64,000 bases of DNA from Bacteroides sp. (GTDB lineage: Bacteria > Bacteroidota > Bacteroidia > Bacteroidales > Muribaculaceae). Made by a program: the position numbers and the translations under genes. Within the stretch, counting starts at the first letter, position 1, and each line of letters opens with the position of its first letter. The notes beneath the pieces are model-generated. The model saw only the letters and a program-made list of their open reading frames with translations. It had not been told where the DNA came from and did not search any database. Location: positions 59,897 to 123,896 of the forward strand of contig JAAVCP010000025.1 of assembly GCA_014802265.1 (NCBI GenBank), given 5' to 3'. Of the stretch, positions 49,919-54,982 are shown in pieces.

Positions 49919-52384
49919 ATGATTTTTCCTAAAGATTTTGAATCGAAAATAGGATTTGCCCCACTAAGGCAGATCATTGTTGATAAATGTGAGACACGCC
50001 TTGGGAAAGAAGCGGCAGTGGCTATGGATTTTGTTTCCGGCTATGAAGAAATCAAGCGGAGGCTGATGTGTGTTGCCGAGATGGTGTCACTCCTCTCGTC
50101 GTCTTCGGAAATGCCCGAGGAGAGAGTTTATGATGTTGTGCCCTGGCTTGCGGAAATTAAGGCAGCCGGATCATTCATGTCAGCTGACCATCTGCAGAAA
50201 CTCTCTGCCACATTAGAGACAATGGCAGGAGTGGGAAATTTCTTTTCCCGTAAGGATGATAATGGGAAATCGCGTTTCCCTTATTTGAGTGATGAATTGT
50301 CGGCACTTCCGGTGTTCCCGGAAATTGTGAAGGAGATTGACCGTTGCATAGGCAGGTTCGGTGAAGTTAAGGATAATGCATCCCCCGGACTTTTGGAGGT
50401 GAGGCGTGCGATGGCGGCTGCCCAAGGCTCTATGCAAAGGGCAATGCGCAGGGTATTAGATCGTGCAATGTCTGAAGGAATCGTTGATAAAGACACTTCT
50501 CCCTCTTTGCGCGACGGCAGAATGGTAATTCCAGTTTCTGCAGCTATGAAAAGAAGCATCACCGGCATTGTGCATGATCAGAGCTCCACAGGTAAGACGG
50601 TGTTTATAGAACCGGCTGAGGTGGTTGAGGCAGGCAACCGTCTTCGTGAGTTGGAGATGGACGAGCGGCGTGAGATAGCTATTATTCTTACTGCCATATC
50701 TGATATGATACGTCCATATATAGAAGAAATAACCGATGGGTGTAAAGTGCTTGCACGTCTTGATTTTATTAAGGCAAAGGCTCGTTTTGCACAAGACACC
50801 GGCGGCGAGCTTCCTTCAATTGAGAAAAAACCGGAGATTGAATGGTATCATGCTATTCATCCCGGCTTGCTTCTTAATCTCAGGACACATGGGCGCACCG
50901 CTGTGCCTCTTGATATTACTCTATCTGAAGAAAAGAGAATACTTATAATCTCAGGACCTAATGCCGGTGGTAAGTCTGTGTGTCTGAAGACAGTGGCAGT
51001 GGTGCAATATATGATGCAATGTGGAATGTTACCTACGCTTTATTCCAATTCCCACATGGGCATCTTTGATAATATCTTTATTGATATAGGCGATGAGCAA
51101 TCGATAGAGAATGATCTGAGCACATATTCCTCTCATCTTGCCAACATGAAATATTTTCTACTTCATGCCAATAAAAAATCGTTAATATTGGCTGATGAGA
51201 TGGGTTCGGGCACAGAACCGCAGATTGGCGGTGCACTTGCACAGGCTATTCTTACTGACCTTGGCAAATCAGGGTGCATGGGAGTTATCACCACCCACTA
51301 TCAGAATCTTAAGTCTTTTGCAGAGTCAGAACCCGGTTTTGTTAATGGGGCAATGCTTTATGACCGGCAGCATCTACGCCCCACTTTTCAACTATCAATA
51401 GGCAATCCGGGTAGTTCGTTTGCTCTTGAGATTGCTCGTAACACAGGATTACCTGCCGGAGTGATTGAAAGGGCAAAGGAAATTGTGGGTAGTGAGTATG
51501 TGAATATTGACAAGTATCTTCTCGATATTCAGCGTGACCGCCGCTATTGGGCGAATAAAAGATTGAGCATAAAAGAGAAAGAACATAAGCTCGATAAGCT
51601 CCTTGAGACATACGAAGACAGTTCTTCTGATCTCAAGACTCAGCGCGCTGCTATTATTCGTGCTGCCAAGGAGGAGGCTAAAGAGATAGTTGCCGGCGCA
51701 AATGCACAGATTGAACGCTCCATTCATGAAATCCGAAAGGCGGAGGCAGAGCGGGAGCGCACAAAGCAGATAAGAAAGGAACTTGAAGAATATCGTCAGA
51801 ATCTGGAGAATGATAGTCAAGATGAATTGCCTGATGTGCTTAAACCCTTGAAACATAAGAGTAAAAAGACTGATGCTGATAAAAAACAGAAGAAAGTTGC
51901 AACTCAGGCCGCTCCCAAATCACTTGGGATAGGTGACTATGTAAGAATGTCTGATGGGGGAGTGGTAGGTAAGATTCTGAGTATCTCCGGGAAAAAGGCT
52001 GAGGTAGCATTTGGTGCATTACGCACAATAGTGGAGTTGGATAAGTTAAAAGCAGCCCAGAAACCAAAACAGACAGCTGCCGCTTCCGTATTGACTGTTT
52101 CTTCTTCCACCAGCAATGAAAGTCGTCAACGTCAGCTGAACTTTAAGAATGAGATTGATGTGAGGGGGATGAGGGCTGATGAGGCTTTGCAGGCAGTTAC
52201 CTATTTCCTTGATGATGCTGTTCAATTCAATGCAAGTCGTCTTAGAATCCTTCATGGCACCGGACACGGAATCTTAAAGACATTGATTCGCGAACAGTTA
52301 AAGGCAAATCCCAACGTCTTTGACTTCCACGATGAAGATGTACGCTTCGGCGGTGCCGGTATCACTGTTATCGATTTAGGATAA
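49919..52384 (+). CDS. mutS2: Endonuclease MutS2
   Basis: RILIISGPNAGGKSVCLKTVAVVQYM Walker A, LILADEMGSGTEPQIGGALAQAIL, C-terminal Smr EIDVRGMRADEAL...LRILHGTGHGILKTLIREQLK. Confidence 0.94.
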   Translation: MIFPKDFESKIGFAPLRQIIVDKCETRLGKEAAVAMDFVSGYEEIKRRLMCVAEMVSLLSSSSEMPEERVYDVVPWLAEIKAAGSFMSADHLQKLSATLETMAGVGNFFSRKDDNGKSRFPYLSDELSALPVFPEIVKEIDRCIGRFGEVKDNASPGLLEVRRAMAAAQGSMQRAMRRVLDRAMSEGIVDKDTSPSLRDGRMVIPVSAAMKRSITGIVHDQSSTGKTVFIEPAEVVEAGNRLRELEMDERREIAIILTAISDMIRPYIEEITDGCKVLARLDFIKAKARFAQDTGGELPSIEKKPEIEWYHAIHPGLLLNLRTHGRTAVPLDITLSEEKRILIISGPNAGGKSVCLKTVAVVQYMMQCGMLPTLYSNSHMGIFDNIFIDIGDEQSIENDLSTYSSHLANMKYFLLHANKKSLILADEMGSGTEPQIGGALAQAILTDLGKSGCMGVITTHYQNLKSFAESEPGFVNGAMLYDRQHLRPTFQLSIGNPGSSFALEIARNTGLPAGVIERAKEIVGSEYVNIDKYLLDIQRDRRYWANKRLSIKEKEHKLDKLLETYEDSSSDLKTQRAAIIRAAKEEAKEIVAGANAQIERSIHEIRKAEAERERTKQIRKELEEYRQNLENDSQDELPDVLKPLKHKSKKTDADKKQKKVATQAAPKSLGIGDYVRMSDGGVVGKILSISGKKAEVAFGALRTIVELDKLKAAQKPKQTAAASVLTVSSSTSNESRQRQLNFKNEIDVRGMRADEALQAVTYFLDDAVQFNASRLRILHGTGHGILKTLIREQLKANPNVFDFHDEDVRFGGAGITVIDLG

Positions 52385-52402: not shown

Positions 52403-52448
52403 ATAAAGTGTCTCTTCTCATTCTGATGAGTGAATAGAGACACTTTAT
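52403..52448 (+). terminator. Terminator-like hairpin after mutS2
   Basis: ATAAAGTGTCTCT...AGAGACACTTTAT, 13-bp arms, inner CTCAT/ATGAG. Confidence 0.65.
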
Positions 52449-52574
52449 ATAGTATACTTTATAAACTAAATTCACAATATTTTAGCTAAAGGGGTAGGTG
52501 GAAAAATAATATCAAGAATGGATTAATATAAATTTTAATTAGATTTTCCTATTTTAGTATTAACTAATATTTGT

Positions 52575-52604
52575 TTGCATTTTCAAGAATTATTTGTAAT
52601 TTTG
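52575..52604 (+). promoter_or_regulatory. Bacteroidota-type promoter for structured leader
   Basis: TTG 52575-52577, N19, TAATTTTG 52597-52604. Confidence 0.6.
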
Positions 52605-52610
52605 CAAAAG

Positions 52611-52930
52611 TATAACGGTTATCTCTCAATATAATATTATAATATAAGGAGAAGTAGCATTTACAGACATAATTAAAGAGCGTTTATCAGACGCTTGTTC
52701 TTGACGAATCGAAATCTGGCAGTTTCATAATCTAAGTCAAGAATGAGACAACGATAGGCGCCTTCGGAGTATGATATCTATAATGGAGTGTGTAGTATAC
52801 ATCCTACATTCTCTTATCATGTCATACGGCGTGAGGCTCTACGTTGCTCGTTCTACTTAGATGGGCACATGCCAGAGCCTCGATTCGTGAGACGAGTAAC
52901 GGATACAGACTCTCACGCTCTCTTTTTTAG
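52611..52930 (+). ncRNA. Candidate structured leader RNA / sRNA with terminator-like 3' end
   Basis: Stems AGCGT/ACGCT (52679/52691), TTCTTGAC/GTCAAGAA (52698/52736), ATGATA...GAGTGTGTAG/CTACATTCTC...TATCAT (52771-52820), GCGTGA+GGCTCT / AGAGCC+TCACGC (52829-52918), followed by TCTCTTTTTT. Confidence 0.55.
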
Positions 52931-53002
52931 TAATAGCCAATTTTGGGAGTTTGATGGCAGAGTAAAAACGTGGAAAATTTGAATCCACAAAATTAAATTA
53001 TT

Positions 53003-54043
53003 ATGAAATTAATTCTGCTTACCACTATTTTAATGATTTGTGGTTTTGTCTCAGGTGTGGCTCAAGTTCAGACTGCTGTTCTGAAACATGATGACAATGT
53101 TAGTTTTTATTATGGACACAACTCATTTTTAGAAGCATATAACGCAGCTTCAGAGGGAGATGTCATTACGCTTTCTACAGGAAATTTTGCTTCTGTGGAT
53201 ACTATTTCAAAGTCCATATCAGTAATAGGAAGATATGCTTTTTCAAGTAATGAGGATATGACAGCTATATCCAATATGGTTATTGCAGCCGATGATGTCA
53301 TATTGTCAGGTATACGTGTGATTGGTACAGTTCGTATGAATTTGACACGTAATCTTACGTTGAAACGTTGTTATATTGAGAATTTAGTATCGGATACCCT
53401 TCATGTTCGGACTTTTATAGAAGATTGTGCAGTGAAAAATGATTTTTCTCTTCCTACAGGTGTGGAAGAATCTTATCGCCGTTGTGACATAGACCGTTAT
53501 CATTGGGGTAATTCTCCTGATAATCCTGCTATATTCGAATATTGTTACGTACGAAATGTTCCTGTTGAAGATATCAATGTGCGATATTCACATGGATTAA
53601 GATACTACGATAATCAATTAAGTTTGTATGGGACATTAAAAAACAGTATTCTTTATTGGTCGCAAATGGTACCTGGACAAAGTACTGCTCAGGCTGCTCT
53701 TTACTTCAATCCACAGAGTAATTATAGCGATATTCTTTTGATTGGAGGATTATACGGTAATGTTGCCCATGTCATTCCTGATGGTACTTTAGCACAATAT
53801 ATAGACGAGAAGTTCATGGACACAGATACTGTATTGGAAGTTATTAAAGATTTTCCTTCTTTTTACTATGATACTATTGTTATTCCTATGGAAGGGAACT
53901 GGGACTATGAGTCTGTTGTAGGATGCTATGAGCATAAAAGCTATCCCGCTATTCCAAGAATTATTGATAGTAATATAAGCAGAGAAACAGATAATAATGG
54001 GAAAATTACAGTTTCCATTACAATTTCCACCGAGGAAAATTGA
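53003..54043 (+). CDS. Exported protein, probable right-handed beta-helix fold
   Basis: Signal peptide MKLILLTTILMICGFVSGVAQ; serial short beta-strand pattern (ISVIGRY, VIAADDVILSGIRVIGTVRMNLTRNLTLKRCYIENL). Confidence 0.65.
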   Translation: MKLILLTTILMICGFVSGVAQVQTAVLKHDDNVSFYYGHNSFLEAYNAASEGDVITLSTGNFASVDTISKSISVIGRYAFSSNEDMTAISNMVIAADDVILSGIRVIGTVRMNLTRNLTLKRCYIENLVSDTLHVRTFIEDCAVKNDFSLPTGVEESYRRCDIDRYHWGNSPDNPAIFEYCYVRNVPVEDINVRYSHGLRYYDNQLSLYGTLKNSILYWSQMVPGQSTAQAALYFNPQSNYSDILLIGGLYGNVAHVIPDGTLAQYIDEKFMDTDTVLEVIKDFPSFYYDTIVIPMEGNWDYESVVGCYEHKSYPAIPRIIDSNISRETDNNGKITVSITISTEEN

Positions 54044-54046
54044 TAT

Positions 54047-54982
54047 ATGGATATGAAAAGATTGGTGTTGATTTTTGGAATGATATTGTTTTGGTGGCTA
54101 AATGGCTGGTCTAACAATTTAAAAATAGAATATTGGTTTGATAGTTCTCAAATAGGGTTAACTGAGGTTGATCTAACTAATAATGAGATTACATTTACCC
54201 CTGATGTAAGTGTGCTTTCTCCAGGATATCATGTGTTATATTATAGAATAATAAATAATGCTAAATCAACTTCGCCATTATGTTCCCATACATTTTATCT
54301 ACCGTATACAGAGAATGATAAGGAAGTGGTAACATATTTAGATTGGTGGTTTGATACGATGAATGTTAATCCTGAAGTTTATAAGTTGGAAGGTGAAAAT
54401 ACTGTAATGCAAATTGATGCATCTTATTTAGACATAGGATTTCATCAGCTTTTTTATCAACTTCGAAATGGTGAGTGTGTCAGTAGTTTGTTATCAACTG
54501 TATTTTATAGGGGAAATGGGACATCAGAGATTGAATGGTGTAAGTATTGGTGGAATGATTCAGTTGAAATAATGGAGTCATTGCCATTAACAACCGGTAC
54601 AATCGTATCATTAGATGATTGTATTTATCTTCCAGATTATATAATTAGTCAATCTGATCATTCCCAGAATACCGCAGTATTGAATTTGATTTTTGGAACA
54701 AATGAGGGTTTTATAAGCGATATTATAACTGCTGCTGTAGATTACAATGCCGCATCGATTAAGGTTATTTCACCTGTTCAAGATTGGTCAGTAAATTATG
54801 ATGAAACTGGATCATATATAATAGGTTTATCTCCCGGAATTGGAATAGTAAGGATATATACTCTAAATGGTATACAAATCTATTCATCTGTGCCTTCTGC
54901 AGATTCGGTATCCCTATCTTTTCTGGATTCTGGTACTTATATTGTAACTTATGCAGGTCAAAGTAATAAGATTATTTTGTAA
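54047..54982 (+). CDS. Exported protein with T9SS-type C-terminal sorting domain
   Basis: 3 bp after upstream ORF; C-term GIVRIYTLNGIQIYSSVPSADSVSLSFLDSGTYIVTYAGQSNKIIL. Confidence 0.7.
   Translation: MDMKRLVLIFGMILFWWLNGWSNNLKIEYWFDSSQIGLTEVDLTNNEITFTPDVSVLSPGYHVLYYRIINNAKSTSPLCSHTFYLPYTENDKEVVTYLDWWFDTMNVNPEVYKLEGENTVMQIDASYLDIGFHQLFYQLRNGECVSSLLSTVFYRGNGTSEIEWCKYWWNDSVEIMESLPLTTGTIVSLDDCIYLPDYIISQSDHSQNTAVLNLIFGTNEGFISDIITAAVDYNAASIKVISPVQDWSVNYDETGSYIIGLSPGIGIVRIYTLNGIQIYSSVPSADSVSLSFLDSGTYIVTYAGQSNKIIL

Follow-up and report, generated by a model that had tools for sequence, protein, structure and literature searches.

The ornate large bacterial RNAs ROOL, GOLLD and OLE are pseudoknot-rich, conserved and mostly known from metagenomes (PMC12286853), while Bacteroidales-1, Bacteroides-1, Flavo-1 and 6S-flavo have been described as structured RNAs of the Bacteroidetes (Weinberg et al. 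2010, PMC2864571). Here we explore an RNA from the same phylum, encoded on a Bacteroides sp. contig (JAAVCP010000025.1) of which a stretch of 64,000 nucleotides, hereafter the window, was analysed. Like ROOL, GOLLD and OLE it is large, pseudoknot-rich and conserved; unlike them it is a short leader of diverse genes with several copies per genome, and their family models do not match it. It shares with attenuators based on intrinsic terminators and with riboswitch leaders an own promoter, a complex fold, a GC-rich stem with U-tract and a start codon close downstream. It differs from these in that more than 70 unrelated gene families follow it without a ligand-linked gene set, that its pairing goes past the U-tract and that it has no Rfam riboswitch match. 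Its leader position before accessory or surface loci resembles that of EAR (epsC, RF01735), JUMPstart (RF01707) and put, from which it is set apart by the lack of a match at Rfam thresholds, an end with terminator signature and many short monocistronic targets. The Rfam models of the four Bacteroidetes motifs had no hit to the element in any of the copies scanned.

The 5' neighbour of the leader region is mutS2 (49919-52384, equivalog match). Directly 3' of it lies a strong hairpin (AAAGTGTCTCT...AGAGACACTTT, 52404-52450), which is probably a bidirectional mutS2 terminator. A first-pass annotation of the window, made from the DNA letters, had proposed a structured leader or small RNA that has a promoter of its own and ends in a terminator-like way, and had recommended an Rfam search and a search for conservation and covarying stems in other genomes. 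The promoter TTTG-N19-TAATTTTG is present, and transcription would start at about 52610. It is followed by some 390 nt without a convincing gene, up to the ATG at 53003, which the annotation had rightly taken as the next convincing start codon and which opens the 346-aa exported protein. That protein lacks a Pfam or NCBIfam match, and the 311-aa protein encoded next to it has a weak T9SS sorting tail that scores below cut-off. The window copy of the RNA covers 52610-52960. The stretch has a folding energy of -113.4 kcal/mol against -74.7 kcal/mol for shuffled sequences (z -7.9), and none of 100 shuffles was as low. This agrees with the proposed structured leader with terminator-like end, as do conservation and covariation that reach beyond the annotation's own test.

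A DNA search with the core found matches in 39 of 61 genomes, many of them with several, at 67-85% identity over about 265 nt. Forty-five copies were extracted and 42 of these were used to build covariance model R1. With this model the window's own genome has eight true copies, the weak matches on the opposite strand being palindromic reflections. In a genus sample, copies were found in 39 of 41 genomes, with up to 18 per genome. An order-wide sample gave at least 111 of 394 genomes and at least 68 of 207 genera, both lower bounds as few candidates were scored per genome. A degenerate DNA pattern matched at least 119 stretches in named GTDB genomes; among the matches listed are Prevotella ihumii, Segatella copri, S. 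hominis and Bacteroides caecigallinarum, as well as metagenome-assembled genomes (MAGs) filed as Phocaeicola, Parabacteroides, Odoribacter and Muribaculaceae. R1 recovers the RNA in the pattern-matched stretches, bar a few that are incomplete or unscanned. Ten of 398 genomes matched in a phylum-wide sample. Those of the matching genomes that lie outside the order carry a shorter form of about 170 nt, mostly in single copy and as a rule directly 5' of an ORF. The pattern also found two viral contigs that carry the RNA. On one of these (L233, 648-1997) the copy lies directly 5' of an EF-Tu-like gene. Phage and plasmid collections gave no match to the RNA by DNA similarity.

Rfam 15 at gathering threshold yielded no match over the element in the window copy or in 37 loci with other copies, and permissive scans of three copies returned chance-level matches only. 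The RNA family is real and widespread, and it has no Rfam match. As no description of such an RNA was found in the open-access literature, it is apparently both uncatalogued and undescribed. Known RNAs were seen in the neighbourhood of two copies: two DUF805 RNA motifs (RF03081) lie shortly 3' of a short-form copy (L255, 1806-1874 and 2410-2478), and FopS sRNA (RF04319) was found about 1 kb downstream of another (L019, 276-342, minus strand).

The features of the window copy are collected in Table 1. The conserved fold has two hairpins linked by three inter-hairpin helices (K1, K2 and K3); further pseudoknots connect it with an upstream domain and with a hairpin past the U-tract. K1 and K3 adjoin both hairpin stems without linkers, which implies two hairpins lying side by side, their partners swapped mid-way and their tips kissing. 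All helices would be present at once in one molecule. The stems AGCG/CGCT, TTCTTGAC/GTCAAGAA, a hairpin within 52769-52827 and GCGTGAG/CTCACGC with its T-run had already been drawn by the first-pass annotation and are conserved across the family. Other pairings drawn there fared less well: GGCTCT/AGAGCC is not conserved, its strand covarying with the upstream domain instead, and the same goes for a two-state switch between CTCG (52879) and CGAG, the columns of which are the variable strand of K1. For a GTGGA/TCCAC hairpin placed just before the ATG, no counterpart was seen when the leaders of other copies were read.

Table 1. Features of the leader RNA and its surroundings (window coordinates)
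Feature	Position	Strand	Details
Bacteroidota-type promoter TTTG-N19-TAATTTTG	52574-52604	+	TTTG 52574-52577, TAATTTTG 52597-52604; from sequence
5' domain position	52610-52676	+	degenerate; not recognisable in window copy
Conserved RNA core	52664-52932	+	query for homologue searches; R1 match 52672-52928
Hairpin H1, AGCG/CGCT	52679-52695	+	arms 52679-52682/52692-52695; conserved in family
H1 loop pseudoknot	52683-52688/52753-52758	+	TTTATC with GATAGG
Hairpin P2, TTCTTGAC/GTCAAGAA	52698-52743	+	arms 52698-52705/52736-52743; loop holds K1, K2 and K3 strands
K1	52706-52712/52880-52886	+	GAATCGA with TCGATTC; z -20
K2	52715-52721/52870-52876	+	TCTGGCA with TGCCAGA; loop-loop pairing; z -14
K3	52730-52735/52857-52862	+	ATCTAA with TTAGAT; z -19
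Variable apical hairpin	52769-52827	+	between the two domains; closing arms GTATGA/TCATAC
P5, terminator-like stem GCGTGAG/CTCACGC	52829-52918	+	arms 52829-52835/52912-52918; encloses P4
Hairpin P4, TTGCTCGTTC/AGACGAGTAA	52844-52899	+	arms 52844-52853/52890-52899
P4 tip stem	52864-52866/52877-52879	+	GGC/GCC
U-tract	52919-52928	+	directly 3' of P5; intrinsic-terminator signature
D4 hairpin, GCCA/TGGC	52936-52958	+	beyond U-tract; intact in window copy
Downstream gene 1	53003-54043	+	ATG 53003; 346-aa exported protein
Downstream gene 2	54047-54982	+	311-aa exported protein

Helices were tested by comparing the pairing energy of their strands within copies with that between copies. P2, P4, P5, K1, K2 and K3 are strongly copy-specific (z -3 to -20). 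In the pseudoknotted structure 94.1% of cells are paired and two-sided changes occur at 43 of 69 pairs; its covariation score is 0.393, versus 0.182 for shuffled alignments and at most 0.082 with slid registers. The copies come mostly from MAGs, phylogeny is partly controlled, and the shuffle controls leave phylogeny in; yet control helices are null and slid registers collapse. P5 is 98.3% paired in the genus set. The pairing, pseudoknots included, also holds in an independent set of 152 further copies, aligned without reference to the drawn structure, in which K2 is 96.9% paired and two-sided changes number 354 in K1, 153 in K2 and 249 in K3. Together with the order-wide occurrence, this is the conservation with covarying stems that the first-pass annotation had named as support. 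In the conserved helices of 152 copies, and likewise in another independent subset, G-U pairs are several-fold above A-C mismatches, from which we conclude that the selected molecule is RNA of this strand. The fold of best energy in the window is a 250-nt rod, which was dropped since its outer pairings do not covary. Two rod-extension control helices were null in the 152 independent copies, extensions that would disrupt P5 show no covariation, and the energy-optimal rod appears in part to be a misleading artefact.

The elements flanking the core are fixed as well. A TAnnTTTG-type box is found at most 160 nt upstream in 171 of 204 copies, as compared to 78 of 751 control positions, at a median of 66 nt 5' of the core, and most start codons lie 40-80 nt past the U-tract. 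A stable stem with an adjoining U-tract hence stands between promoter and gene. Across copies, T makes up 71-93% at the first seven positions past P5, and A shows no such enrichment. In D4, GGGAGTTTG (52945-52953) pairs with CAGACTCTC (52906-52914) at the base of P5, with which it overlaps by 3 nt. This pairing has z -7 in the genus and -15 in 135 copies outside the genus, control pairings being null, and D4 overlaps P5 by 2-4 nt in 163 of 163 copies with a good D4 duplex. Copies other than that of the window have a 5'-domain hairpin, the loop of which pairs with the strand just 3' of the P5 5' arm (equivalent to 52833-52843; z -6.6 in the genus, -6.5 in 135 other copies, controls null). No helix made ahead of the U-tract was identified that would serve as antiterminator by excluding the base of P5. 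Overlaps with the terminator are only partial: that of D4 amounts to 3 nt and comes after the U-tract, and the 5' domain adjoins P5.

The genes that follow the RNA are diverse. Downstream proteins numbering 144 match 76 Pfam families, the largest being LRR_5 with 11 members (BspA-type LRR surface proteins), followed by others such as LytTR with four and UpxY antiterminators with two. Single matches include methyltransferases, helicases, a kinase and defence-type proteins; many genes encode orphan exported proteins and many are very short (70-75 aa). A shared ligand pathway, as expected for a metabolite riboswitch, is not found among these proteins, and with dozens of unrelated genes downstream a ligand-specific riboswitch of one pathway is unlikely. 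The two UpxY/NusG-type antiterminator genes (2 of 144 proteins) lie directly 3' of the leader at L086 and at L199 or L229. An HTH-like protein of about 70 aa recurs directly 3' of the RNA in several Bacteroidales families (L092, L109, L128, L130, L136, L153 and L226).

Copies of the RNA are not bound to their surroundings. Flanking DNA or the downstream protein is common to both members in only some six of the 77 copy pairs with an identity of 80% or more. L083 and L158 have unrelated flanks and agree at 98% of positions over a stretch that begins at about the -7 box and ends shortly 3' of the U-tract, and identity is 0.712 within genomes versus 0.711 between genomes. Near-identical copies in unrelated flanks mean that the RNA moves independently of genes. 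A search of 29 sister loci of the mutS2 locus found a full copy only in G014, plus one further weak match; the locus of the window's nearest relatives has no copy, its boundaries being too diverged to define an insertion. L014 and L047 share upstream DNA and leader (about 94% identical) and have wholly different downstream genes, the break lying inside P4, which reflects either gene replacement or an assembly chimera. Tentatively, one might see in the family a portable RNA that travels between loci and species without the genes it precedes, that brings dozens of unrelated accessory genes under the control of a single signal or factor, and that folds by strand exchange, with helices K1 and K3 that are hardly ever the same in two copies.

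As to function, on balance we favour, by little more than an even chance, a portable 5' leader that acts as a conditional terminator, or attenuator. Transcription would start at the TTTG/TAATTTTG promoter, and the nascent RNA would fold its 5' hairpin domain (H1, P2) and then the 3' domain (P4, P5), after which the loops of the two domains could zip via K1, K2 and K3. P5 would close the 3' domain directly before the U-tract, as in an intrinsic terminator. In this way the leader would set how much transcription ends in a terminated product of about 320 nt and how much reads on into the gene; the outcome would depend on how the upstream domain is folded, the input perhaps being a ligand, a protein or the speed of RNA polymerase. 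In read-through mRNA, D4 would pair with the base of P5 and open its last three pairs, which could add translation control. D4 cannot itself decide termination because it is made after the U-tract. The first-pass annotation had envisaged a riboswitch-like attenuator for the two exported genes: the cis leader and the terminator signature stand, whereas a metabolite riboswitch is a poor fit, given the dozens of unrelated genes. With more than 70 families downstream there is no single regulated pathway, and this counts against the attenuator reading as well.

The U-tract bears directly on whether the leader acts mainly after transcription instead, its compact fold protecting the mRNA or D4 controlling access to the start codon, with the tract as a linker. 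Such a role is in keeping with the place of the D4 hairpin loop, some 22 nt 5' of the start codon, with its covariation with the base of P5 and with the fact that a single static fold can accommodate the entire RNA. A linker, however, would need neither a tract that is specifically U at seven positions, with little A, nor one that begins exactly where P5 ends, and we consider this role rather unlikely. An independent trans-acting sRNA that merely happens to lie upstream of genes, also suggested by the first-pass annotation, would account for the own promoter, the compact fold, the terminator signature and the several copies per genome. It would not account for the clustering of start codons downstream. 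Covariation moreover continues past the U-tract to D4, so the functional unit does not end at the terminator, and the window interval has no match among Rfam sRNA families. A free sRNA is therefore unlikely and does not hold as the whole story, although a short terminated product may well exist.

Processive antitermination as by put or EAR, in which polymerase would read through terminators in acquired genes, would suit a large leader with pseudoknots that stands in front of accessory, surface and defence genes, and UpxY antiterminators are themselves encoded downstream of two copies. The many genes of 70-75 aa would need no such aid, though, and neither Rfam EAR (epsC) nor JUMPstart matches, which makes this mechanism quite improbable. 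That the fold matters as DNA, in a mobile palindromic element of MITE-like or attC-like kind, is suggested by copies up to 98% identical in unrelated flanks and by equal identity within and between genomes. Yet pairing in 152 copies is not strand-symmetric, G-U being far above A-C in paired cells as befits RNA of one strand; the spacing of promoter and start codon is fixed, and the conserved pairs differ from those of a simple palindrome. We hold a DNA element to be very improbable.

The human gut is dominated by Bacteroidales, and we found no earlier account of an RNA of this kind. A leader that occurs in several copies and is common to surface adhesin-like proteins, LytTR regulators, UpxY antiterminators and defence genes would bring a hidden regulon to light and offer a means to control gene expression in the order. 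Segatella copri and other cultured carriers allow direct tests of the family. The covariation data also form a rich natural example of strand exchange between hairpins and of two-sided helix evolution, ready for structure determination.

K1 and K3 illustrate this evolution. When copies with a backbone identity of 90% or more are compared, 38% of K1 sites and 28% of K3 sites differ, as against 1-9% for most other helices and 10% for unpaired sites. K1 changes in such near-identical backbones are two-sided with pairing kept in 90 cases and one-sided in four. The variability of K1 and K3 is matched by that of the unconstrained apical hairpin (0.42 vs 0.41), for which reason we do not claim diversifying selection. 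Nor is there evidence of selection for orthogonality among paralogues, since strands from one genome pair in trans no less strongly than strands from different genomes. Rapid drift under strict pairing, or else template switching, therefore suffices as explanation and no code is needed. Template switching in quasi-palindromes may yield two-sided changes. K strands as a rule do not match the flanks. In one of eight tests, on 172 copies, the 5' strand of K3 pairs slightly more than expected with the 400 nt that follow in its own locus (z -3.5), which is probably due to chance or a neighbour effect.
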